Positions 1-16,077 of a stretch of DNA of 64,000 nucleotides are shown piece by piece. The position numbers were made by a program, and so were the translations under genes. Source of the DNA: Anaerolineales bacterium (lineage in GTDB: Bacteria > Chloroflexota > Anaerolineae > Anaerolineales > Villigracilaceae). Where the stretch lies: the NCBI GenBank assembly GCA_016934715.1, contig JAFGSI010000014.1:1-64000 (forward strand), in the 5' to 3' direction. Every line of letters starts with the position of its first letter. Position 1 is the stretch's first letter. Under the pieces are notes generated by a model. It searched no databases. It saw only the letters and a list, made by a program, of their open reading frames with translations, and was not told the origin of the DNA.

Positions 1-110
1 CTCCTTATTTGGTTTAGGAACCTGAAGGATACACCTGACCTACTCTTTTAAGGTGACCAATTTTACAGAAAGAATTTTACGCTAACTTTCATCGGCCGCG
101 TGAAGAGTCA

Positions 111-555
111 TCACATATTGTCCGGTGCGAACCTTGATGCGCAATGGGTTGAGAATACGTTCGAACACGGGTGGCTTCTCAAGCAGTTCGTAGTCAAACT
201 ATACATTAAAACGAAACTCCAGGCGAGAATGAAATGGGCGGGGGGAGGTGCAATAAGTCGATGCTTTGGACAGGTCAGATTTAGGCAGAGGGCATCCTTG
301 AGAGATGTGCCTCCCAGATGGCGGCGCCCCAGGGCTTCCGCCCCTGCTTTTCGCAACAACTCCCGCATTCCTTGCTCCACCGCCCGGATCCCCTTCTCGG
401 CTTCGACACCGATCTGTTCCATCACTTTTGACCATGATCTCGGCCAGCTTGTTCACCGCTTCTGTGCAAAACCTCTCCTGAGGCTCCTGTTTCGCTTTCG
501 GTTGTTGCGCCTTGATCGTGACAGCCAGGCTCTTTTTTCTGCAAGAGCCCAACAC
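111..555 (-). pseudogene. Decayed transposase-like fragment with a frameshift
   Basis: Two minus-strand frames read as one protein if a single extra T in the run at 426-429 (an A on the coding strand) is removed. The first frame ends ...NKLAEIMVK and the second continues VMEQIGVEAEKGIRAVEQ, then MRELLRKAGAEALGR. This charged helical N-terminus recalls ISKra4-type transposases. After about residue 75 the similarity-like character is lost and the frame runs into non-coding sequence, so the rest of the element is missing. No terminal inverted repeats are visible. The family call is from memory of the sequence style and is tentative; the frameshift logic is seen directly. Nothing else is recognisable in positions 1-641. 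Confidence 0.35.
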
Positions 556-641
556 CTTTTTCGTGCGCCCGTCTGACCTTGTTTCATTGACGGGTTACAT
601 TAAACACGGTATATTGCTCCCAACCCATCCGCGGAGCGCCC

Positions 642-2831
642 ATGCCCGAGCCAAACACCCCCCTCAAGGCCGTCATCCTGGCAGCAGGCCAAGAAACCAG
701 CCAAAGCAACGTCCTGCCGATCCTGCTCCAGGACCTGGCCGGTCGCAAGGTCATCGACTACGCCGTCCAGAACGCCCTGCGGGTCGTCGCGCCCGCCGAC
801 CTGCTGATCGTCGTCGGCTGTGGCGAAAACGAGATGAAGGCCCACCTCGGGACCGGATACCAGTACGTTTGCCAGGAGGAGCCGCGCGGTACCGGGCATG
901 CCGTCCTGCAGCTGAAACCCTTGCTGCAGGATTTTGGCGGCGACCTGCTGATCTTGTACGGCGACACACCCCTCTTCCGCCCCGACTCGATTCGCGGCCT
1001 GCTCAATCGCCACCGCCTGCGCCAGGCCCAGTTGACCCTGCTGACTGCCGTGGTCGACATGCCCTATCCCTACGGGCGTATCATCCGCGATGCCCGCGGC
1101 CAGATCGTCGACATCATCGAGGCCGCCGATGCATCTCGAACTGTAAGTGAGATCCGCGAGCTGAACGTCGGAGCCTATGTTGTCCAGGCGGAAGCGATCT
1201 TTCCAACCCTCGAAACGCTCAGCCCGTCGCCCCTCGACGAAACCTACCGCCTGACCGACTGCGTCCACCAGCTCATCCGGTCTGGTCTGCGGGTCGAGAC
1301 CTACCAGACCTATGACCAGGACGAGGTGCAGGGGATCAACACTGCTGAAGACCTGGCTGCTGCCGAGTTCATCATCCAGAAACGGCTCTTCCGCCCGGCA
1401 CGGCCCGAGGAGGGAGAAACCGTCGCCTTCGGGACCGGAGGCTGGCGGGCGATCATCGGCGAAGCCTTCACCATGCACAACGTCCGCCGGCTGTCGCAGG
1501 CCCTGGCCAACGCGATCACCCGCCAGGGGCTGGAAACCCAGGGGGTGCTGATCGGCTACGACCGGCGCTTCCTCTCGGACCGGGCCGCCGAGGCGGCCGC
1601 CGAGGTCTTCGCCGGCAACAATATCTCGGTCACGCTGCTGGCCGAAGACGCCCCCACCCCGCTGGTCACCTACGCCACCGCCGAACTGCAGGCCGCCTAC
1701 GGGCTGTGCTTCACCGCCAGCCACAACCCTCCAGAATGGAACGGCCTTAAGGTCTTCACAAGCGACGGCTCCCTGCTGCTCGACGAAGAGACCCGGGCGA
1801 TCACCGCGGAAACCAACCACCTCACCTCCGGCGAGATCATCAAGTTGGATTTCAATCTGGCCCTCGAGGCCGGGATCGTCCGTCGGCGTGACATGACCAA
1901 CGAATACGTCGACGCGGTCGAACGCCTGATCGACCTGGAGGCCATCCGGAACGCCAATCTGCGGGTCATTGTCGATCCAATGTATGGCGTCGGCCAACTG
2001 ACCCTGGGCATCATCCTGACCGAGGCCCGCTGCCGGGTGACCTTCATCCACGAGCGCCGCAACCCGCTCTTCGGCGGCCGCTCCCCGGCTCCCGATCTGG
2101 AAGCGCTGCGCCTGCTGACCAGCAACATCCAGGAGGGCGGCTACGACCTGGGTATGGCCACCGACGGCGACGCCGACCGGATCGCCATCGTCGACGAACA
2201 GGGCCGCTACATCTCCACCAACGACCTGCTCTGCCTGGTCTACTGGTACCTGCATGAGGTCAAGAAACAGCGCGGCGGCGTGGTGCGCAACCTGGCCACC
2301 ACCCACCTGCTCGATCGCCTGGCCGATCGCTTCGGCGAGAAACACATCGAGGTCCCGGTCGGGTTCAAGCACATCGCTGCCGGGATGGTGGAGCATGACG
2401 CCCTGCTGGGCGGTGAGTCGAGCGGCGGCCTGACCGTCCGCGGTCATATCCTGGGCAAGGACGGCATCTTCGCCTGCGCCCTGGTCGTCGAGATGCTGGC
2501 CCGCACAGGCATGCACATCTGCGAGATGCAGGAAGAGGTCTGGAAACTGACCGGCCGCCTGTATGCAGCCGAGGAGAACATCCCGGCCACACCCGAGATG
2601 CGCGTCGCCGTGCCGCAGAAACTCAAGGATGTGCCCATCACGGCCATCGGGAAGTACAGGGTCCTGGACGTCAATCACTATGATGGAACAAAGGTCCTGC
2701 TCGAAGCTGACAACTGGGCCCTGCTACGTTTCTCCGGCACCGAGCCAGTCCTGCGCCTGATGGTCGAGGCCGACAGTCCCGAGAAAGCCCGGGAATTGAT
2801 CGATTGGTTGAAGGGATTTTGCGCTCAGTGA
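642..2831 (+). CDS. Nucleotidyltransferase-like / phosphohexomutase fusion protein
   Basis: This 729-residue protein joins an N-terminal GlmU-type sugar-1-phosphate nucleotidyltransferase fold (about 1-235) to a complete alpha-D-phosphohexomutase (about 250-729). The mutase has all four family loops: catalytic serine loop TASHNP (Ser360), metal loop DGDADR (about 508), sugar loop GGESSGG (about 590) and phosphate loop RFSGTEP (about 697). The N-terminal domain keeps RGTGHAV, YGDTPL and a GIN motif, but the nucleotide-binding signature GxGTRM...PK is replaced by GQETSQ...PI, so that domain may not be catalytic. The gene lies just upstream of chitobiose phosphorylase, whose product is GlcNAc-1-phosphate. 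An inferred role is therefore interconversion of GlcNAc-1-P and GlcNAc-6-P. A glucose or mannose mutase remains possible. Confidence 0.85.
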   Translation: MPEPNTPLKAVILAAGQETSQSNVLPILLQDLAGRKVIDYAVQNALRVVAPADLLIVVGCGENEMKAHLGTGYQYVCQEEPRGTGHAVLQLKPLLQDFGGDLLILYGDTPLFRPDSIRGLLNRHRLRQAQLTLLTAVVDMPYPYGRIIRDARGQIVDIIEAADASRTVSEIRELNVGAYVVQAEAIFPTLETLSPSPLDETYRLTDCVHQLIRSGLRVETYQTYDQDEVQGINTAEDLAAAEFIIQKRLFRPARPEEGETVAFGTGGWRAIIGEAFTMHNVRRLSQALANAITRQGLETQGVLIGYDRRFLSDRAAEAAAEVFAGNNISVTLLAEDAPTPLVTYATAELQAAYGLCFTASHNPPEWNGLKVFTSDGSLLLDEETRAITAETNHLTSGEIIKLDFNLALEAGIVRRRDMTNEYVDAVERLIDLEAIRNANLRVIVDPMYGVGQLTLGIILTEARCRVTFIHERRNPLFGGRSPAPDLEALRLLTSNIQEGGYDLGMATDGDADRIAIVDEQGRYISTNDLLCLVYWYLHEVKKQRGGVVRNLATTHLLDRLADRFGEKHIEVPVGFKHIAAGMVEHDALLGGESSGGLTVRGHILGKDGIFACALVVEMLARTGMHICEMQEEVWKLTGRLYAAEENIPATPEMRVAVPQKLKDVPITAIGKYRVLDVNHYDGTKVLLEADNWALLRFSGTEPVLRLMVEADSPEKARELIDWLKGFCAQ

Positions 2832-2838
2832 CCCAGGC

Positions 2839-2856
2839 CCACGCCTAACGGCGTGG
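2839..2856 (+). other. Short intergenic hairpin after the mutase fusion gene
   Basis: CCACGCC and GGCGTGG form a perfect 7-bp stem with a TAAC loop, 8 nt after the mutase stop. No T-run follows, so it is a weak terminator candidate or an mRNA 3' end stabiliser. Confidence 0.4.
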
Positions 2857-3095
2857 ACCGCAAGAACACAGCCCAGGAGATTCACCCCAATTCTTGAAAT
2901 TGTTGGCAGGGCATGCCGCAGCCAGGCGACTGCCAGGAGCCCCTACGAAGAGCGATCAGCGCTAACAATCCCTGGGAGATTCATGGTTTTTGGGCTGGCG
3001 TATCACGGAGATCGCCCGGAAGGCATGCTGTGCGGTCGTCGGGCTTGACCCAGCGCACAGCAATGGACCACATTCGTTTATTTTATGGAGAAAGT

Positions 3096-5492
3096 ATGCA
3101 TTATGGCTTTTTCGACGACGATAATCGCGAATATGTAATCGAACGTCCCGATGTCCCGGTTTCGTGGACCAACTACCTGGGTGTACGGGACCTTTGCACG
3201 GTGCTCTCGCACAATGCCGGAGGCTACACCTTCTACAAATCGGCTGAGCATGGGCGCATCACCCGTTTCCGCCAGAACGGCGTTCCGCTTGACCGGCCAG
3301 GGCATTACCTATACATCCGCGACGACGAGACCGGCGAGTTCTGGACGATCTCCTGGCAGCCGACCGGCAAGGACCTGGATCAGGCAAAATACGAGTGCCG
3401 TCACGGTCTCTCCTACTCGAAATTCTCGTGTGACTACCGGGGTATCCAGGCCTCACAGTTGATCTTCATCCCGGTTGAGGACGACGTCGAACTCTGGGAC
3501 GTGTGCCTGGCCAACCGCTCCGGGAAGCCGCGTCGCCTGAGCATCTTCTCTTACGTCGAGTTCTCTTTCCATCACATCGAGATCGACAACCAGAACTTGC
3601 AGATGTCTCTCTATGCCAGCGGCTCGAGCTACGCCGACGGTGTCATCGAGTACGATTTCTTCTACGAACCGTGGACCTATCATTATTTTACAGCGAACTT
3701 CGAGCCGGACTCCTATGACTGCCTGCGCGAGGCCTTCATCGGCAATTACCGCACCGAAACGGATCCGGCGGCGGTTGCTCGCGGCGAGTGCTCCGGCTCG
3801 TCCGAACTGGGTGGCAACCACTGCGGCGCCCTGCACAGGCGCCTGACCCTCCAGCCCGGCGAGGAGACCCGCCTGCTCTTCCTGCTCGGCGTCGGCTCGA
3901 GACAAGCAGGATTGTCTATGCGCAGAAAATATGCCAGATCCGAGGCGGTCGACACCGCCTTCGCAGACCTGAAAACCTACTGGCAAAAGAAGTTGGCGGC
4001 CTTCCAGTGCCATACCCCCCATCCCGGCCTGGACAGCTTGATCAACACCTGGACCCTCTATCAGGCCGAGACCTGCGTGGTCTGGTCGCGCTTCGCCTCC
4101 TTCATCGAGGTCGGCGGGCGGACCGGCCTGGGCTACCGAGACACATCTCAAGATGTGATGGCTGTCGCCCACACCAACCCGGCCAGGGTCAGGCAGCGCA
4201 TGCAGGAACTCTTCCACGGCCAGGTCAGCCAGGGATACGGCCTGCACCTCTTCGATCCGGAGATCTTCAAGCCCCGGGAAGATCGCCTGCCCGGCGTCAA
4301 GTTGCCAACCGTAGTTCCAACCCCCGACCCGCAGGACATCCTCCACGGGTTGCAGGACACCTGCTCCGACGACGCCCTGTGGATCGTCGCTTCGGTCTGT
4401 GAGTACGTCAAGGAGACCGGCGACCTGGCTTTTTTCGACCAGGTTATCCCCTTCGCCGACGAGGGTCAGGCCACGGTCTACGAACACCTCAAGCGGGCAC
4501 TGGACTTCTCTGCCGAACAGATCGGCCAGACCGGGATCTGCCTGGGCCTGCGGGCCGACTGGAACGATTGTCTCAACCTGGGCGGCGGCGAGTCTGCCAT
4601 GGTCTCGTTCCTGCACCACTGGGCACTGGTCAACTTCGTCGAGGCGGCCAATTTCCTGGGCCGCGAAGAAGATGTCCGTACTTACACGACCATGGCCGAG
4701 AAGGTCCGCCAGGCCTGCGAGGACAACCTGTGGGACGGCCAGTGGTACCTGCGCGGCTTCACCAGGAAGGGCCTCAAGATCGGTTCGCACGAGAACGAGG
4801 AAGGCAAGATCTTCCTGGAGAGCAACTCCCTGGCAGTGCTCTCGGAGGCGGCCAGTCCCGAACGCGGCCGCCAATGCATGGACTCGGTCGATAGGCATTT
4901 GTACTCAAAATTTGGTATTCACCTGCTCTGGCCGGCCTTCTCGCAGCCTGACGACGACATCGGCTACGTGACCCGGGTTTACAAGGGCATCAAGGAGAAT
5001 GCCGCCATCTTCAGCCACCCCAATCCTTGGGCGATCGTCGCCGAGTGCAAACTCGGCCGCGGGAACCGGGCGATGAAGTTCTACGACTCGACCCTGCCCT
5101 ACAATCAGAATGACATGATCGAGATCCGCCAGGCAGAGCCTTACTCCTACTGCCAGTTCGTCATGGGGCGCGATCACACTGCCCATGGAAGGGCCCGCCA
5201 CCCCTGGCTGACCGGTTCGGCCGGCTGGGCTTACCACGCCGTCACGCACTGGATCCTGGGGGTGCGGCCCGGCTTCGACGGCCTGACCATCGACCCCTGT
5301 ATCCCGTCCGGCTGGAAGGAGTTCGAGGTGAGGCGTCAGTGGCGCGGGGCCACCTACCGGATCAGGGTCGAGAACCCGCGGGGGGTCGAAAAAGGCATCA
5401 AACAGGTCACATTGAACGGGGATCCGATCATGGGCCCGGTCCCACAACAACAGGCCGGGACGGACAACGAAGTGGTCATCGAGATGGGATAA
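3096..5492 (+). CDS. chbP: N,N'-diacetylchitobiose phosphorylase (GH94)
   Basis: A 798-residue cytoplasmic GH94 enzyme. It is expected to split chitobiose with phosphate into GlcNAc-1-phosphate and GlcNAc. It agrees with remembered Vibrio ChbP over its whole length, including the start MHYGFFDDDNREYVI, the central WTLYQAETCVVWSRFASF block and the C-terminus near VTLNGDPI. The family motif LRADWNDCLNLGGGES holds the catalytic acid region (Asp488/Asp491), and LTGSAGWAYHA the phosphate-site loop. Cellobiose phosphorylase is the close alternative, but the resemblance favours ChbP. An upstream in-frame extension to 2913 exists; the start at 3096 is chosen because GGAG lies 6 nt before it and it matches the family N-terminus. 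No transporter or chitinase is adjacent. Confidence 0.88.
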   Translation: MHYGFFDDDNREYVIERPDVPVSWTNYLGVRDLCTVLSHNAGGYTFYKSAEHGRITRFRQNGVPLDRPGHYLYIRDDETGEFWTISWQPTGKDLDQAKYECRHGLSYSKFSCDYRGIQASQLIFIPVEDDVELWDVCLANRSGKPRRLSIFSYVEFSFHHIEIDNQNLQMSLYASGSSYADGVIEYDFFYEPWTYHYFTANFEPDSYDCLREAFIGNYRTETDPAAVARGECSGSSELGGNHCGALHRRLTLQPGEETRLLFLLGVGSRQAGLSMRRKYARSEAVDTAFADLKTYWQKKLAAFQCHTPHPGLDSLINTWTLYQAETCVVWSRFASFIEVGGRTGLGYRDTSQDVMAVAHTNPARVRQRMQELFHGQVSQGYGLHLFDPEIFKPREDRLPGVKLPTVVPTPDPQDILHGLQDTCSDDALWIVASVCEYVKETGDLAFFDQVIPFADEGQATVYEHLKRALDFSAEQIGQTGICLGLRADWNDCLNLGGGESAMVSFLHHWALVNFVEAANFLGREEDVRTYTTMAEKVRQACEDNLWDGQWYLRGFTRKGLKIGSHENEEGKIFLESNSLAVLSEAASPERGRQCMDSVDRHLYSKFGIHLLWPAFSQPDDDIGYVTRVYKGIKENAAIFSHPNPWAIVAECKLGRGNRAMKFYDSTLPYNQNDMIEIRQAEPYSYCQFVMGRDHTAHGRARHPWLTGSAGWAYHAVTHWILGVRPGFDGLTIDPCIPSGWKEFEVRRQWRGATYRIRVENPRGVEKGIKQVTLNGDPIMGPVPQQQAGTDNEVVIEMG

Positions 5493-5756
5493 ACGAGCAG
5501 GGCGCCATTCGCCGCCCCGCTCTTCTCCACGACACTCCCCGGCCACTACAGCAGCGAGGCTTCTTGGGGCAGCCTTGCCCGCGGACTGCGCGTTCGCCCC
5601 AGCGGGCGTGTCCCACCCGTTTCAATGCATTTTTTAAACGCTTATCACGATCCGGAACGGTACACCCCAAAACAACCTGCAGCCCGCACATCTTCTCGAG
5701 AAACCGGCTCTTCCATTGCCATGGCTATGGCGGGCTTGCCGCGGGTTCTCATTCGG

Positions 5757-6704
5757 TCACCAGGGAAGCAGCAGGCCGATGCCAAAACTGGCCAGGTTCA
5801 AGACCAGACTGACAAGGGCAGCCTCCCCAAAGCGGATCGCTCTCCGCTGGACCAGGAACAGTCCAAGGGCTTCTACCAGCCAGACACACACCTCGGCCGG
5901 GAGAATGATCCAGAATGGGAAGAGGCTGTCCAGAGCATGCACCGTCAACCACAAGCCCGGCTGGGTGGACAGGTTGAGCAAAAGCAGGGTGGTGAGGAAG
6001 ACCACCTTCGGGCCCTTGCGCAAGAGCACGTAGACGGTCCCCAGAAGAGACTCGACCAGTACGGTAGCGAACAGCCCGGGAGTGATCAGGATGCCTGACA
6101 AGAACAGCGGCAGGGAGATGATCCAGGCCGGGATGTACAGGCCCAGCAAGGACCGAAATGTAGCCCCGGCTCGCCCCACCAGGACCAGGAAGAGGATCAA
6201 GAACACCCAGATGGCAGCATAGGTGCATAGGAAGATCGCCCAGATCCCCATATCCAGCGGCGGAAAGCCAAGGATATTTGTATTCGGGCCGCAATAACGC
6301 GCACTCACCACCAGATCATCTTCCTGCACCAAAACATCGAAAAGGGAGTCAAAGGATGGGTGCGTGAAGACATTGCTCTGCCGGACCCGACCGTCAGCGA
6401 ACTCGATCTCCAGGCGGTGGTAGGGCTGGTAGCCGTATGCCATCGAGGAGCAGGTATTCTCCCAGCATTCGAACCGCTGGGGCCCCATTTGCTCGAGCGG
6501 CCGGGCGTCTGTACAGTCGGGATCGGTACATTCGTATTGGATCCCGGTAAGAATCGCCGGTTCGGGGTCGATCGCATAGGTGAAAGAAAACTGCATCGTC
6601 GGCTTCGGCCCCATGTCTGCCCGGACGGGGAGCACAAAAACCACGATCAACGACAGGCCGAGCAGCACAGCCCCGGCCCGCCTGGCGAATGGATACATGC
6701 TCAT
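5757..6704 (-). CDS. Secreted-domain membrane protein of unknown function
   Basis: About 315 residues. The N-terminus has a signal-like segment (AVLLGLSLIVVFVLPVRA), then an extracytoplasmic region of about 125 residues with several cysteines (YECTDPDCTD, FECWENTCSS, RYCGPN), then five or six hydrophobic helices to the end. The start at 6704 is set by GGAGGAACA directly before ATG. It lies 25 nt after the glycerophosphodiesterase stop, so the two are probably co-transcribed. No catalytic motif is recognised. The paired cysteines suggest disulfides in the outer domain; that is inference. Confidence 0.7.
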   Translation of the reverse strand: MSMYPFARRAGAVLLGLSLIVVFVLPVRADMGPKPTMQFSFTYAIDPEPAILTGIQYECTDPDCTDARPLEQMGPQRFECWENTCSSMAYGYQPYHRLEIEFADGRVRQSNVFTHPSFDSLFDVLVQEDDLVVSARYCGPNTNILGFPPLDMGIWAIFLCTYAAIWVFLILFLVLVGRAGATFRSLLGLYIPAWIISLPLFLSGILITPGLFATVLVESLLGTVYVLLRKGPKVVFLTTLLLLNLSTQPGLWLTVHALDSLFPFWIILPAEVCVWLVEALGLFLVQRRAIRFGEAALVSLVLNLASFGIGLLLPW

Positions 6705-6729: not shown

Positions 6730-8145
6730 TCAGGCATGGTCAGGGTCCTGATTCGCAAGACTTCCGCCCAAGATCCGCGCGGCAAACGCTCCGGCCAGAA
6801 TCCAGAGGATCAGGAAAAAGGGATACGGGATCGCCAGCAAAGGCCGCCGCAGGGCGATCAATCCCTGGACATTGTTACTCGTCACCGAATCCGCTCCCGC
6901 CAGCCAGAGGCGGGAATATTGCCAGGTTTCATCCACCGTCCACAGGTTGACCCACAGCCCGGCCTGGTGGAAAAGTCGAAGCCTCCTGTTCGACAGGCCG
7001 TATTCGCTGTTGACCACCCTGTAGCCTGCCGATACCAGGTCTTCGGGCGAAGGTGGGTTTCGGCGATAATCGATCCCAGCCGCCAAGGTGACTCCAGGCA
7101 GGGCCGCCCGGACGCGATCGATCTCGTCCGGGCTGGCCAGGACCCAGGTCCGGGAGGCGATGCCGGCTGCTTCGATCCCGGTCAGGCACAGGTCGAAGGC
7201 CTGGTCGGCATAAGGATGGGGAGCGGTCGGAATCCGCAGGTCGTAGATGAAAAAGAGATCGTTTTCCCGCACCACCTGCAGCACCTCATCCAGGGTCGGG
7301 ATTGGCTCCGCGCGGTAGGAAGCAGCCTCGACCCGTGAGATGGTTCCCACTGCTATTGTCCCATACGGATCGCGATCGACGAACCAGCTGCCAGCGTCAA
7401 GCAGTATCAGTTCGGCGTGGGTGAAACTATCCGCCGGATCTCCGCTCCGGGCTGGAAGCACCCGTTCCACGTCCGTGGTCCGCTCCAGGGTCGAGTCGTG
7501 CATCAGGAACAGAACCCCATCGCGGCTGATGATAATGTCGGTTTCCAGGCCGTAGACGCCCAGGTCGGCGGCGCGCCGCATCGCCGCCAGGGTGTTCTCC
7601 GGGGCCAGCTGCGAGGCACCCCGGTGGGCAAACAGCCAGGGCTGCTCCGGAAGCGGACCAGCGTAGACGTTGCCGGGAGGCCAGATAAGGGGCACCAGCC
7701 AGAGCAGGAACAGACGGGCGGCCGGCAGGCGCGGCTTCCGTCCGGATGCATGGTGCGACCATCGACGCAGCCCCAGGGCTGCCAGGAGCAGCACTCCGAG
7801 ATCGAGAAAGAGGCGGAAATAATGGAGCCCCTGTCCCAGCCGGGCAAATTGAACCGGGTTCTTGGTGAACAAAACCACAAAACTGCCATAGAAAAAGGCC
7901 AGGTAGAAAATGCCGATGGCAGAAAAAAGCCAGACCGGGCCGGCCCTGCGGGCGTCCCGCCGCAGGGCCAGGCGGGCTGCGCTCCACAGACCGACCAGCA
8001 GGCTGAAAAACAGGAAGATCAGCAGGAACTGCACCTGCATCCCAAGCGCCTCGACCAGAAAATCATCGACTGCCTGCTGAAAGGACAGGTTGGTGAGCCA
8101 GAAGACCAGGAAGAGCAGCGCATGGATCAGGATTGTCCAGGTCAT
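6730..8145 (-). CDS. Membrane-anchored glycerophosphodiester phosphodiesterase
   Basis: A 471-residue protein with about five N-terminal transmembrane segments (1-170), a GDPD catalytic domain (about 180-435) and a C-terminal helix (PYPFFLILWILAGAF). The GDPD signature is clear: AHRGASQLAPENT, then ETDIIISRDG and LMHDSTLERTT, giving the His-Arg and Glu-Asp metal and catalytic residues. It should hydrolyse glycerophosphodiesters to glycerol-3-phosphate and an alcohol, or act on lipid headgroups at the membrane. The start at 8145 follows AAAAGGAGAGAG. It sits downstream of a Cys-containing HTH regulator on the same strand and upstream of a membrane protein, suggesting a small envelope operon. 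Confidence 0.88.
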   Translation of the reverse strand: MTWTILIHALLFLVFWLTNLSFQQAVDDFLVEALGMQVQFLLIFLFFSLLVGLWSAARLALRRDARRAGPVWLFSAIGIFYLAFFYGSFVVLFTKNPVQFARLGQGLHYFRLFLDLGVLLLAALGLRRWSHHASGRKPRLPAARLFLLWLVPLIWPPGNVYAGPLPEQPWLFAHRGASQLAPENTLAAMRRAADLGVYGLETDIIISRDGVLFLMHDSTLERTTDVERVLPARSGDPADSFTHAELILLDAGSWFVDRDPYGTIAVGTISRVEAASYRAEPIPTLDEVLQVVRENDLFFIYDLRIPTAPHPYADQAFDLCLTGIEAAGIASRTWVLASPDEIDRVRAALPGVTLAAGIDYRRNPPSPEDLVSAGYRVVNSEYGLSNRRLRLFHQAGLWVNLWTVDETWQYSRLWLAGADSVTSNNVQGLIALRRPLLAIPYPFFLILWILAGAFAARILGGSLANQDPDHA

Positions 8146-13474: not shown

Positions 13475-14464
13475 ATGCAACCGTTCATCGTTGGAATTCG
13501 CTTCGCAGAGGTCGGTAAAATCTACCACTTCGATGCCGCCCTGATCCCCGAGATCAAGGTCGGCGACCATGTTATCGTCGAGACCAGCCGCGGCCGGCAG
13601 CTGGGCGAGGTCGCCCAGCTGGTCGAAGATCCCTCCCCCCCGCCCGAAGGCTGGAAGTCAGTCGAACGCCGCGCCACTCCGCGCGACCTGGTCCTGCGCA
13701 AGACCTGGCAGCAGAAGGAAGTCGCCGCCATGGTCGACTGCCGCGAACGCGCCGCCCAGCTCAGGCTGTCAGGGATCAAGATCGTGGCCAGTGAATATTC
13801 CTTTGACGGCACCCGCCTGACCTTCATTTACAGCACCGAGAGCGAGGACAAGGTTGACCTCAAATCCCTGCGCCACGACATGCAGAAGAAGTTCACCCCG
13901 GCCAAAGTGGAGATGCGCCAGATCGGCCCGCGCGACGCCGCCAAGATCCTCGGCGGGTTGGGCGCCTGTGGATTGGAGACCCGCTGCTGTTCGCGCTTCC
14001 TGACCGAGTTCAGCCCGATCTCGATCAAGATGGCCAAGGAACAGGGCATCTCGCTGACCCCGAGCGAGATCACCGGTATGTGCGGCCGCCTGCGCTGCTG
14101 CCTGATCTACGAATATGAACAGTACGCCGCTGCCCGCAAGGAACTGCCCAAGCGCAAGAAACGCGTGGTCACCCCCTCCGGAGAAGGGAAGGTCCTCGAC
14201 GCCATGCCGCTGACGATGCGGGTGCGGGTCGAGCTGGATGATGGCACGACGCGCGAATTCGATCGCGATGAACTCGAGCCATGGGACGAACTCGAAGCCC
14301 TGCGACGCAAGTCACAGCAGCCCTGTGACAACTGCCAGGAAAAGAAGCCAGAAGAGCCGAAAGTGGAATTCCAGGCAGAAACACCTGCACAAAAAGCGCC
14401 CGCGGCAGAACAACCTGTCAGGAGAAGGCGCGGCAACCGCCATCGCCGGCCCAGATCCGGTTGA
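13475..14464 (+). CDS. ricT: PSP1-domain protein, RicT-like
   Basis: About 329 residues. The N-terminal two thirds is the PSP1 domain (VGIRFAEVGKIYHFD, GDHVIVETSRG) with the conserved cysteines CGLETRCCSRFL and MCGRLRCCLIYE; the last 70 residues are a low-complexity Pro/Glu/Lys and Arg tail. In Bacillus, RicT (YaaT) works with RicA/RicF in an Fe-S complex that controls RNA maturation. Placement after the Fe-S carrier mrp is consistent with an Fe-S protein. An ATG at 13469 is also in frame, but it would precede the predicted transcription start; neither has a Shine-Dalgarno. Confidence 0.88.
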   Translation: MQPFIVGIRFAEVGKIYHFDAALIPEIKVGDHVIVETSRGRQLGEVAQLVEDPSPPPEGWKSVERRATPRDLVLRKTWQQKEVAAMVDCRERAAQLRLSGIKIVASEYSFDGTRLTFIYSTESEDKVDLKSLRHDMQKKFTPAKVEMRQIGPRDAAKILGGLGACGLETRCCSRFLTEFSPISIKMAKEQGISLTPSEITGMCGRLRCCLIYEYEQYAAARKELPKRKKRVVTPSGEGKVLDAMPLTMRVRVELDDGTTREFDRDELEPWDELEALRRKSQQPCDNCQEKKPEEPKVEFQAETPAQKAPAAEQPVRRRRGNRHRRPRSG

Positions 14465-14478
14465 CCGCTCGGCCTACC

Positions 14479-15204
14479 ATGACCGAACAACCCGGCAAAT
14501 GGCCCACCCCCCAGAAGATCCTGGTCATCCTGGCCCATCCCGATGACCCGGAATTCTTTTGCGGCGCCACCCTGGCCCGCTGGGCACGGGAAGGTCATGA
14601 GATCCACTACTGCCTGCTGACCTGCGGCGACAAGGGCGGCAACCTCGACCTGACCCCCGACCAGCTGTGCCATAACCGGCGCGGCGAGCAACGCCGGGCT
14701 GCCGATGTGATCGGCGTCGGGTCGATCCGCTTCCTCGAACTGGAGGACGGTTATCTCGTCCCGAGCCTGGAGCTGCGCCAGGAGATCGTGCGGATCATCC
14801 GCCAGGAGAAACCTGATATCCTGGTGGCCTGCGACCCCACCAACCTGTACCCTTTCAGTGGTTACGGGCTCAACCACCCCGACCACCGGGCCGCCGGACA
14901 GATCGTGCTCGATGCAGTCTTCCCGGCCGCCGGCAATCCGCACTACTTTCCTGAACTGCTGAAGGGAGAGAACCTGGAACCGCATACGCCGAAAGAGGTC
15001 TGGGTCTCGCTGGCCGCCAATCCGACCGTGGTCTTCGACGTGACCGACACCTGGGAGATCAAGTTGAGCGCTCTCCTCGAACACCGGTCCCAGATCGGCG
15101 ACCCGGCCAGGTTCGAAGAGCGTATGCGCTCACGCCGCACCGAGGACAGCAGCGACGCGGCGCCGCGCTATGAGGAGAAGTTCCGTCAGATCAAGTTCCG
15201 TTAG
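14479..15204 (+). CDS. PIG-L/LmbE-family deacetylase
   Basis: A 241-residue zinc-dependent N-deacetylase of the PIG-L family. The metal motif AHPDDPEFFCGATLA is near residue 23 and HPDHRAAGQIVLDAVF near 140, giving the His-Asp and His ligands. Such enzymes remove acetyl groups from GlcNAc-conjugates (as in bacillithiol, mycothiol or GPI precursors). The true substrate is unknown here; GlcNAc handling elsewhere in the window is suggestive only. The ATG at 14479 is preferred over a TTG at 14461. It starts 14 nt after the PSP1 gene. Confidence 0.88.
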   Translation: MTEQPGKWPTPQKILVILAHPDDPEFFCGATLARWAREGHEIHYCLLTCGDKGGNLDLTPDQLCHNRRGEQRRAADVIGVGSIRFLELEDGYLVPSLELRQEIVRIIRQEKPDILVACDPTNLYPFSGYGLNHPDHRAAGQIVLDAVFPAAGNPHYFPELLKGENLEPHTPKEVWVSLAANPTVVFDVTDTWEIKLSALLEHRSQIGDPARFEERMRSRRTEDSSDAAPRYEEKFRQIKFR

Positions 15205-15249
15205 GACCGGGTTGTCAGCAACTCGGTTTTTGATCCCTGCGACTGCTTG

Positions 15250-16077
15250 ATGAAGATCGTTACCCAGCGCCTGTCTCTCCCCTTTCTTGGCCTGGCCATC
15301 CTGCTCACAGGTTGTGCCCTGACCAGCGGTCTGGACGCGCCCGCGGGCTGGACTCTGGTATGGGCCGACGAGTTCAACCAGCCTGATGGTTCGGCCCCCG
15401 ACCCGTCGCGCTGGAACCACGCCACCGGCGGGAGCGGCTGGGGCAATGCCGAGTTGCAACACTACAGCAACTCGACCGACAACGCCTACATTCAAGACGG
15501 CATGCTGGTCATCCAGGCCAATGAAGAAACCAGCATGGGCCGGAACTACACCTCGGCCCGTCTGCACACCATGGTGTGGGCCGAATGGACCTATGGGCGT
15601 TTTGAGATCCGCGCCCGCCTGCCGAATACCCCGGGCATCTGGCCGGCTTTCTGGCTCCTCCCGGCCAGTGCCACCCGTTACGGGACCTGGCCGGCCGGCG
15701 GCGAGATCGACATCATGGAGATGATCGGCAGCCAGCCAGGGCGCGTCTATGCCACCATTCACTACAACAATCCGCACCGGCAATCGGGCGGACATTACGA
15801 CCTCCCCGCCGGGCAGACCTTCGCCGACGACTTTCACGTTTTCGCCCTGGAATGGGAACCCGAGGAAATGCGCTGGTACGTGGATGGAGTCCTGTATCAC
15901 ACCGAAACATCCTGGTTCACCAACAATGCCCCTTTCCCGGCCCCTTTCGATCAGCCCTTCTATCTATTGATCAACCTGGCTGTCGGCGGGACCTGGCCCG
16001 GCAGCCCTGACGAGACCAGCGCCTTCCCACAGTACCTGTTCGTGGACTATGTTCGTGTTTACCAGAAAGAACCCTAA
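15250..16077 (+). CDS. GH16 beta-glucanase lipoprotein
   Basis: A 275-residue secreted lipoprotein. The signal peptide ends in a lipobox (LLTGC), predicting lipid-anchored export. The rest is a GH16 domain with WADEFNQPDGS, WGNAELQHYS and the catalytic GEIDIMEMIG (nucleophile and acid Glu separated by the conserved Asp), typical of endo-1,3-beta-glucanases (laminarinases). The C-terminal FVDYVRVYQK closes the jelly roll. It probably degrades external beta-glucans. TTG at 15247 directly precedes the ATG; no strong Shine-Dalgarno is visible. It is the only clear extracellular glycosidase in the window. Confidence 0.93.
   Translation: MKIVTQRLSLPFLGLAILLTGCALTSGLDAPAGWTLVWADEFNQPDGSAPDPSRWNHATGGSGWGNAELQHYSNSTDNAYIQDGMLVIQANEETSMGRNYTSARLHTMVWAEWTYGRFEIRARLPNTPGIWPAFWLLPASATRYGTWPAGGEIDIMEMIGSQPGRVYATIHYNNPHRQSGGHYDLPAGQTFADDFHVFALEWEPEEMRWYVDGVLYHTETSWFTNNAPFPAPFDQPFYLLINLAVGGTWPGSPDETSAFPQYLFVDYVRVYQKEP

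Follow-up and report, generated by a model that had tools for sequence, protein, structure and literature searches.

Salvage of chitobiose by a phosphorylase and a neighbouring mutase has been described in Vibrio, where VC0612 is named as a chitobiose phosphorylase (ChbP) and VC0611 as a GlcNAc-1-P mutase in PMC5209532. Two further systems are relevant to the locus presented here. The first is GlmU, whose N-terminal uridyltransferase domain depends on a catalytic loop containing an Arg and a Lys (R18 and K25 in E. coli); the K26A mutation of M. tuberculosis GlmU, which affects the same Lys, abolished the uridyltransferase activity (PMC4619583). The second is GMPPA, a paralogue of GMPPB without catalytic activity, which binds GDP-mannose and inhibits GMPPB (PMC11228364).

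The locus lies at the start of C23, one of the 88 contigs of a 4.09 Mb genome (G000), and the 64-kb stretch from the beginning of that contig, analysed as a whole, is referred to as the window. The window pair resembles the Vibrio VC0612/VC0611 pair in that the window phosphorylase shares 60% identity with the ChbP of V. furnissii CIP 102972 and in that the adjacent gene on the same strand in Vibrio encodes a mutase of the same larger clade, in a comparison made with Vibrio loci other than that of V. cholerae itself. However, the Vibrio mutase is unfused and downstream, whereas the window mutase is located upstream and carries an additional N-terminal domain that would be a pseudo-GlmU. The salvage pair of ChbP and GlcNAc-phosphate mutase is thus supported by gene content, yet it is already known from the Vibrio work of PMC5209532. 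The new element appears to be the N-terminal domain, very probably catalytically dead but with a kept pocket, which is found in three phyla. The features of the locus are the following.

642–2831 (+): fused gene of 729 aa, probable pseudo-GlmU uridyltransferase domain followed by a PGM/PMM-type GlcNAc-phosphate mutase
642–1394 (+): N-terminal GlmU-like domain, residues 1–251 (domain search and structure model)
687–722 (+): degenerate catalytic loop, residues 16–27 (alignment to E. coli GlmU)
1413–2828 (+): mutase domains I–IV, residues 258–729 (domain and fold match)
1719–1721 (+): S360 in the TASHNP phosphoserine loop (no variation among 30 aligned mutases)
2163–2180 (+): metal loop DGDADR, residues 508–513 (mutase alignment)
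2412–2429 (+): sugar-binding loop GESSGG, residues 591–596 (mutase alignment)
2727–2747 (+): phosphate loop RFSGTEP, residues 696–702 (mutase alignment)
2838–2856 (+): intergenic hairpin with a 7-bp stem, without a T run after it
3096–5492 (+): ChbP (GH94), with the probable start moved from 2913 (homologue alignments)
4566–4568 (+): Asp of ADWND at the position of D492 in V. proteolyticus ChbP (alignment)

Both the fused mutase gene and the GH94 gene were confirmed as real. The longest reading of the GH94 open reading frame spans 2913–5492 (+) and contains both GH94 domains, but the true start is more probably the ATG at 3096, since the alignment of V. proteolyticus ChbP begins at this Met, the alignments with both relatives from the same genus (G001 and G002) also start there, and GGAGAAAGT stands directly 5’ of it. 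The mutase stop codon and this start are separated by 264 bases containing the hairpin, a pattern that is expected about once per window when up to two mismatches are allowed. A scan of positions 1–6000 for promoters and terminators returned 2 and 4 sites, respectively, against 1.3 and 4.4 in shuffled sequences, which is approximately chance; the same scan placed a promoter-like site at 587–615, directly 5’ of the fused gene.

The GH94 protein matches the Pfam families PF06165 (270.7 bits) and PF17167 (597.7 bits, about 600). In a phmmer search against solved structures it scored 1212.7 bits with the V. proteolyticus chitobiose phosphorylase 1v7v and 533.9 bits with 8bou, also labelled as an N,N’-diacetylchitobiose phosphorylase, while the cellobiose phosphorylases of the PDB scored at most 518 bits. 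Residue D492 of the V. proteolyticus enzyme, presumably the catalytic acid, is identical in the window ChbP alignment, as are R343, R349, D350, H644 and Q168. R343 and Q168 are named in PMC5309861, in which the phosphate-site His is printed as H624. In a GH94 tree (quick search) from which rows below 600 aa were excluded, and in which the unfused category also took in loci whose flanks were short or whose mutase was distant, the window protein grouped with V. furnissii ChbP, which is counted among the characterised enzymes in PMC8950772, and a branch with a support of 100 split both from the five other GH94 rows. From these alignments the enzyme is identified as a chitobiose phosphorylase, and phosphorolysis of (GlcNAc)2 is predicted.

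The preliminary description of this DNA had already favoured a ChbP that yields GlcNAc-1-P, and the phmmer scores bear this out; its caveat that the enzyme could still be a cellobiose phosphorylase is contradicted by those scores and by the GH94 tree, on which that assignment is rejected. A pair that serves glucose metabolism could be entertained given that the GH94 family is common to both activities and that the genome encodes four other strong GH94 proteins, but it is scarcely credible in view of the gap of 1212.7 bits against at most 518 and of the grouping across the fully supported branch. With regard to those additional proteins, two are found close together on C59 (250185–257169) and the others on C69 and C82, with a weak match on C5. 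One of them sits within an open frame of 2905 aa that resembles a cyclic glucan synthase, and none of the three on C59 and C69 exceeds 41% identity to the window ChbP.

Residues 262–720 of the fused protein match all four PGM/PMM domains and nothing else, and the C-terminal acetyltransferase domain of GlmU is absent. The phosphoserine, metal, sugar and phosphate loops are all intact, as the preliminary description had stated, and an alignment of 30 mutases shows S360, D508–R513 (with variation at A511), G591–G596 and R696–P702 to be invariant, with GESSGG shared by all the ChbP-linked mutases, 9 of them fused and 21 unfused. A tree of 131 rows (quick search, LG+G4), excluding rows that were shorter than 380 aa, contained stops or were identical, placed the window mutase and 36 further fused rows on a single branch with an SH-aLRT of 100; the program flags long-branch joins in this tree, the one of the G188 row included. 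The fused branch joins the unfused ChbP-linked mutases of Vibrio, other gammaproteobacteria and Bacillota with a moderate SH-aLRT of 85, in a group that accounts for 91 of the 131 rows and that also holds two mutases found in ChbP loci at some distance from ChbP and three encoded outside the locus in genomes that carry ChbP. The genome’s own mutases on C1 and C59 fall outside this joint branch. By its position in the tree, the mutase is assigned to the ChbP-linked clade of the Vibrio VC0611 type and not to the housekeeping GlmM/PGM enzymes, and it is likely to convert GlcNAc-1-P to GlcNAc-6-P. The AlphaFold2 model of the fused protein has a mean pLDDT of 87, and the best fold match of the mutase part is the Thermus mutase 1tuo (Z 46.6, 2.1 Å over 431 residues).

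The preliminary description had proposed to look for the pair side by side in related genomes, and such conservation was found. Among the best 80 of 591 confirmed ChbP matches in one-per-species genomes, a sample whose proportions apply to close relatives only, 60 loci had a ChbP-linked type of mutase no more than 1 kb away in the same orientation. Eight of these mutases were fused (seven upstream and one downstream of ChbP) and 52 were unfused, all of them downstream. The remaining loci of the same best 80 comprised 13 without a mutase despite adequate flanks, five with flanks that were too short and two with the mutase elsewhere in the locus. In the five mutase-less loci in which the next upstream gene was scanned, this gene encodes an MFS transporter (three of L077, L079, L081, L085 and L078), a fucosidase (one) or a GH3 protein (one). 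In a set of 61 genomes covering the window’s own genome, its genus, family and order, the fused gene and a close ChbP (83–85% identity) were only found in the three genus members, and the two genes were adjacent in 3/3.

In a Chloroflexota sample the fused gene is carried by 4 of 400 genomes, two of which are genus members, and it is present in 44 of 200 genomes of the family of Sanguibacter; from these 44 matches, 30 were taken as loci and 7 more by region. In two loci, L241 (G539) and L242 (G517), the fused gene is split between frames, for which sequencing errors or decay are possible reasons, and these genes were searched in pieces with their frames left unmended. The 50 fused loci were reduced to 38 distinct sequences, which underlie the counts out of 38 given here, and which occur in Chloroflexota, Actinomycetota and one alphaproteobacterial MAG. 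ChbP adjoins 37 of the 38. The exception is G188, in which the fused gene is surrounded by LGT, YchF and other housekeeping genes and has no ChbP beside it. In a plasmid collection searched at an E value of 1e-100, no full-length relative was found, and a single record matched the mutase part only.

The N-terminal domain shares its fold and its pocket residues with the uridyltransferase domain of GlmU, but it differs from it in the loss of R18 and K25, in the lack of an acetyltransferase domain and in the fusion to a mutase. In the window protein the two positions are occupied by S20 and I27, and aligned to E. coli GlmU neither residue is present in any fused N domain (R18 0/38, K25 0/38), with G16 and M19 likewise absent in 38/38. 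Separate uridyltransferases kept both R18 and K25 in 20/20 cases; of these 20 controls, 8 came from fused carriers and 10 from other relatives within Chloroflexota, with one each from Vibrio and a Cellulomonadaceae MAG, and the G453 control (L215) has only 357 aa and is not a full GlmU. An alignment-free search for the catalytic GxG(T/S)RM...K motif gave the same picture, with 0/38 fused proteins against 22/23 uridyltransferases. Fused loops may contain an Arg near their start (31/38) or a Lys further on (2/38), but never both (0/38), and the window loop has neither. The G188 protein has an Arg at the K25 position and an Ala replacing G14. Three short stand-alone uridyltransferase-like proteins of about 340 aa with an intact R/K pair (L168, L179 and L180, from G447, G451 and G450) were held apart from the 20 controls; in these three genomes no mutase was seen adjacent to the ChbP.

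These losses indicate that the N domain is very probably a pseudo-uridyltransferase. The preliminary description had recognised the fusion of a mutase to a GlmU-like nucleotidyltransferase domain, and the fusion stands, but it had overlooked that the nucleotidyltransferase signature is broken. The module that it had proposed for GlcNAc-1-P salvage is likewise upheld in part: the route to GlcNAc-6-P is likely from the ChbP identity, the mutase clade and the pairing, whereas the route to UDP-GlcNAc via the fused domain is unsupported because that domain has lost its catalytic residues in all 38 fused proteins. An active fusion making UDP-GlcNAc directly from ChbP-derived GlcNAc-1-P would fit the GlmU-like fold, the pocket and the adjacency of ChbP, but it is very improbable with both R18 and K25 missing throughout and not a single loop combining an Arg with a Lys; the active GlmU reading is rejected on these losses and on the absence of the motif. 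Reading such mutase fusions as active nucleotidyltransferases is probably wrong, which calls for caution in annotation. Eight sampled fused carriers (G000, G001, G002, G188, G238, G453, G456 and G463) encode a separate uridyltransferase with intact R18 and K25, and the fused domain would therefore be free to lose catalysis. Among the matches listed in a search of the open-access literature, no paper was found that describes a mutase fused to an inactive GlmU domain.

Despite the lost catalytic loop, the pocket is well conserved. Residues Q76, G81, T82, Y103, D105, N169 and N227 (E. coli numbering) are kept in 38/38 fused N domains, as is A13, while G140 is kept in 36/38 and E154 in 33/38. N169, Y103, D105 and N227 lie on the GlcNAc and metal side of the pocket and A13, Q76 and G81 on the uracil side. 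Over 12 pocket sites the identity of the fused domains to E. coli GlmU is 92%, against 28% over 215 columns, and none of 20000 random sets of 12 sites reached the pocket value; the 20 controls gave 94% at the pocket sites and 41% domain-wide by the same measure. The 12 sites are residues named in PMC9105790, some of them for docked compounds rather than for UDP-GlcNAc, and they were transferred from M. tuberculosis to E. coli GlmU numbering along shared motifs. A pocket for uridine, GlcNAc and a metal thus appears to be retained at the level of residues, and would be expected to bind such a ligand. Modelled alone, the N domain has a pLDDT of 88, with residues 18–22 below 50. Its best structural match is GlmU 1g97, which contains UDP-GlcNAc and Mg (Z 31.1, 2.2 Å over 247), and other GlmUs among the re-examined Foldseek matches, including the apo form 1g95, tie with it within 1 Z. 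At the position of E. coli GlmU Tyr197, the 20 controls all have a Tyr and 37/38 fused domains have an Arg, a possible sign of a changed or new ligand contact.

With regard to selection, the N domain is constrained between G001 and G002 (dN 0.031, dS 0.365, dN/dS 0.085), as is the mutase part (dN 0.025, dS 0.241, dN/dS 0.105). Between the window and G001 the N domain diverges faster than the mutase part, with identities of 74.5% and 83.1%, respectively. Furthermore, in three actinobacterial pairs dN/dS was higher in the N domain (0.16, 0.63 and 0.40) than in the mutase part (0.05, 0.21 and 0.24), which speaks for a looser constraint on the actinobacterial N domains. This faster change, together with the loss of a catalytic loop that is modelled at low confidence, would suit an N domain that is a structural or oligomerisation module only, with its pocket a relic that binds nothing. 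The conserved pocket can alternatively be kept for folding, but folding alone hardly explains why it so far exceeds the domain-wide identity and why seven of its positions are unchanged in all fused proteins, and we regard a purely structural role as unlikely.

A model in which ChbP is paired with a mutase that is tuned by a non-catalytic, ligand-binding N domain is the one that we favour, with some confidence. In this model, ChbP would phosphorolyse N,N’-diacetylchitobiose into alpha-GlcNAc-1-P and GlcNAc, and the neighbouring mutase would interconvert GlcNAc-1-P and GlcNAc-6-P. GlcNAc-1-P would be the branch point, leading to UDP-GlcNAc via the separate intact GlmU, or through the mutase to GlcNAc-6-P and breakdown. 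The N domain, of GlmU uridyltransferase descent, would no longer make UDP-GlcNAc after the loss of its catalytic Arg/Lys loop, and would most likely tune the mutase by binding a regulatory ligand, UDP-GlcNAc (or GlcNAc-1-P). From the observed gene identities, pairing, broken motif, kept pocket, constraint and intact uridyltransferase elsewhere, we infer both catalytic activities, the ligand binding, and the regulation with its sign. As a counterpoint, the mutase is unfused in 52 of the 80 best ChbP loci described above.

The retention of the pocket on an enzyme that would drain GlcNAc-1-P hints at a sensor positioned where UDP-GlcNAc synthesis and breakdown diverge. Such a fused UDP-GlcNAc sensor might gate the mutase, so that GlcNAc-1-P derived from chitobiose would be directed to cell-wall precursors at low UDP-GlcNAc and to breakdown at high UDP-GlcNAc, or with the opposite sign; this more specific proposal is tentative. 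The N domain might instead bind the pathway intermediate GlcNAc-1-P, capturing it from ChbP and handing it over to the mutase rather than sensing UDP-GlcNAc. Such a hand-over would agree with the invariant residues of the GlcNAc and metal side, with ChbP adjoining nearly every fused gene and with the presence of 2qkx, a GlmU with GlcNAc-1-P, among the structural matches, but the residues of the uracil side are equally kept in 38/38 and would be needless in a site for GlcNAc-1-P only, which makes it more doubtful than the purely structural role.

For the preferred regulation of the mutase by a ligand-binding N domain, GMPPA is proposed as a precedent by analogy. According to PMC11228364, GMPPA has a nucleotidyltransferase fold, is non-catalytic and signals the presence of a sugar nucleotide to another enzyme in its pathway, and for the window domain these last properties are proposed only. 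Unlike GMPPA, which acts in trans on its active paralogue, the window domain is fused to the mutase that it would regulate. If the model is true, the fused pseudo-uridyltransferase would be the bacterial equivalent of GMPPA as a regulator, and the partition of amino sugars between wall synthesis and breakdown could be studied on it directly.

The fate of GlcNAc-6-P appears to differ among fused carriers. In the three genus genomes NagA was not found in G000 and G001, and G002 presented only noise (at most 21.6 bits), while the same search matched 14/14 control genomes, 7 of them over the cut-off. NagB was not found in 3/3 genus genomes and was matched in 8/14 controls. The other fused carriers tested have a long NagA-family match in 12/12 cases (5 over the curated cut-off) and a NagB-family match in 10/12 (7 over the cut-off and three weak), and the idea that fused carriers have lost the catabolic exit in general is rejected on these matches. 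The loss of canonical NagA and NagB is thus peculiar to the window genus among the carriers tested, and the catabolic exit there is therefore uncertain. By contrast with that genus, the alphaproteobacterial locus L087 contains a GntR/UTRA regulator, a SIS deaminase-like gene, NagA, an MFS transporter, the fused mutase and ChbP, which looks like a full catabolic set, and in G238 a SIS deaminase-like gene directly precedes the fused gene, while NagA and ABC transporter genes are found close by. From this gene content, the mutase plausibly runs toward GlcNAc-6-P and breakdown in at least these two loci.

In the window genus, a cluster that resembles those for chitin disaccharide use is conserved in all three genomes, off the window contig (C82 of G000, at about 29–38 kb; locus L252, 8534–17317). 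It contains a SIS gene that resembles the isomerase half of GlmS and NagB-II (239.6 and 234 bits), a deacetylase of the YdjC/ChbG type, the only GH18, a solute-binding protein, a BadF/NagK-like kinase, a GH4 protein and two ABC permeases, with scores below the NCBIfam cut-offs wherever these are listed. From its gene content, this cluster may replace NagA in the window genus.

A chitin operon around the pair was not seen among ten neighbouring open reading frames scanned in G001 and G002, which encode exonuclease VII, DUF212, MurJ, HerA-type, Tad, isocitrate dehydrogenase family, GDPD, GlmS-type and nuoCD proteins, with one frame left without a match. A GDPD phosphodiesterase gene is located 3’ of ChbP both in the window, at 6730–8145 (-), and in G001 (L068, 5075–6427), and nuo genes are present further on in the window and in G002. 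In G002 a GlmS-type gene with GATase and SIS domains lies directly 5’ of the fused mutase (L069, 5557–7398); it was not seen at that position in G001, and the upstream side of the window ends at the contig edge. Further along the window, a gene at 14461–15204 (+) encodes a PIG-L/LmbE family deacetylase, which among solved structures is closest to LnmX (103 bits) and a diacetylchitobiose deacetylase (97 bits), and the adjoining gene at 15247–16077 (+) encodes a GH16 glucanase-like protein.
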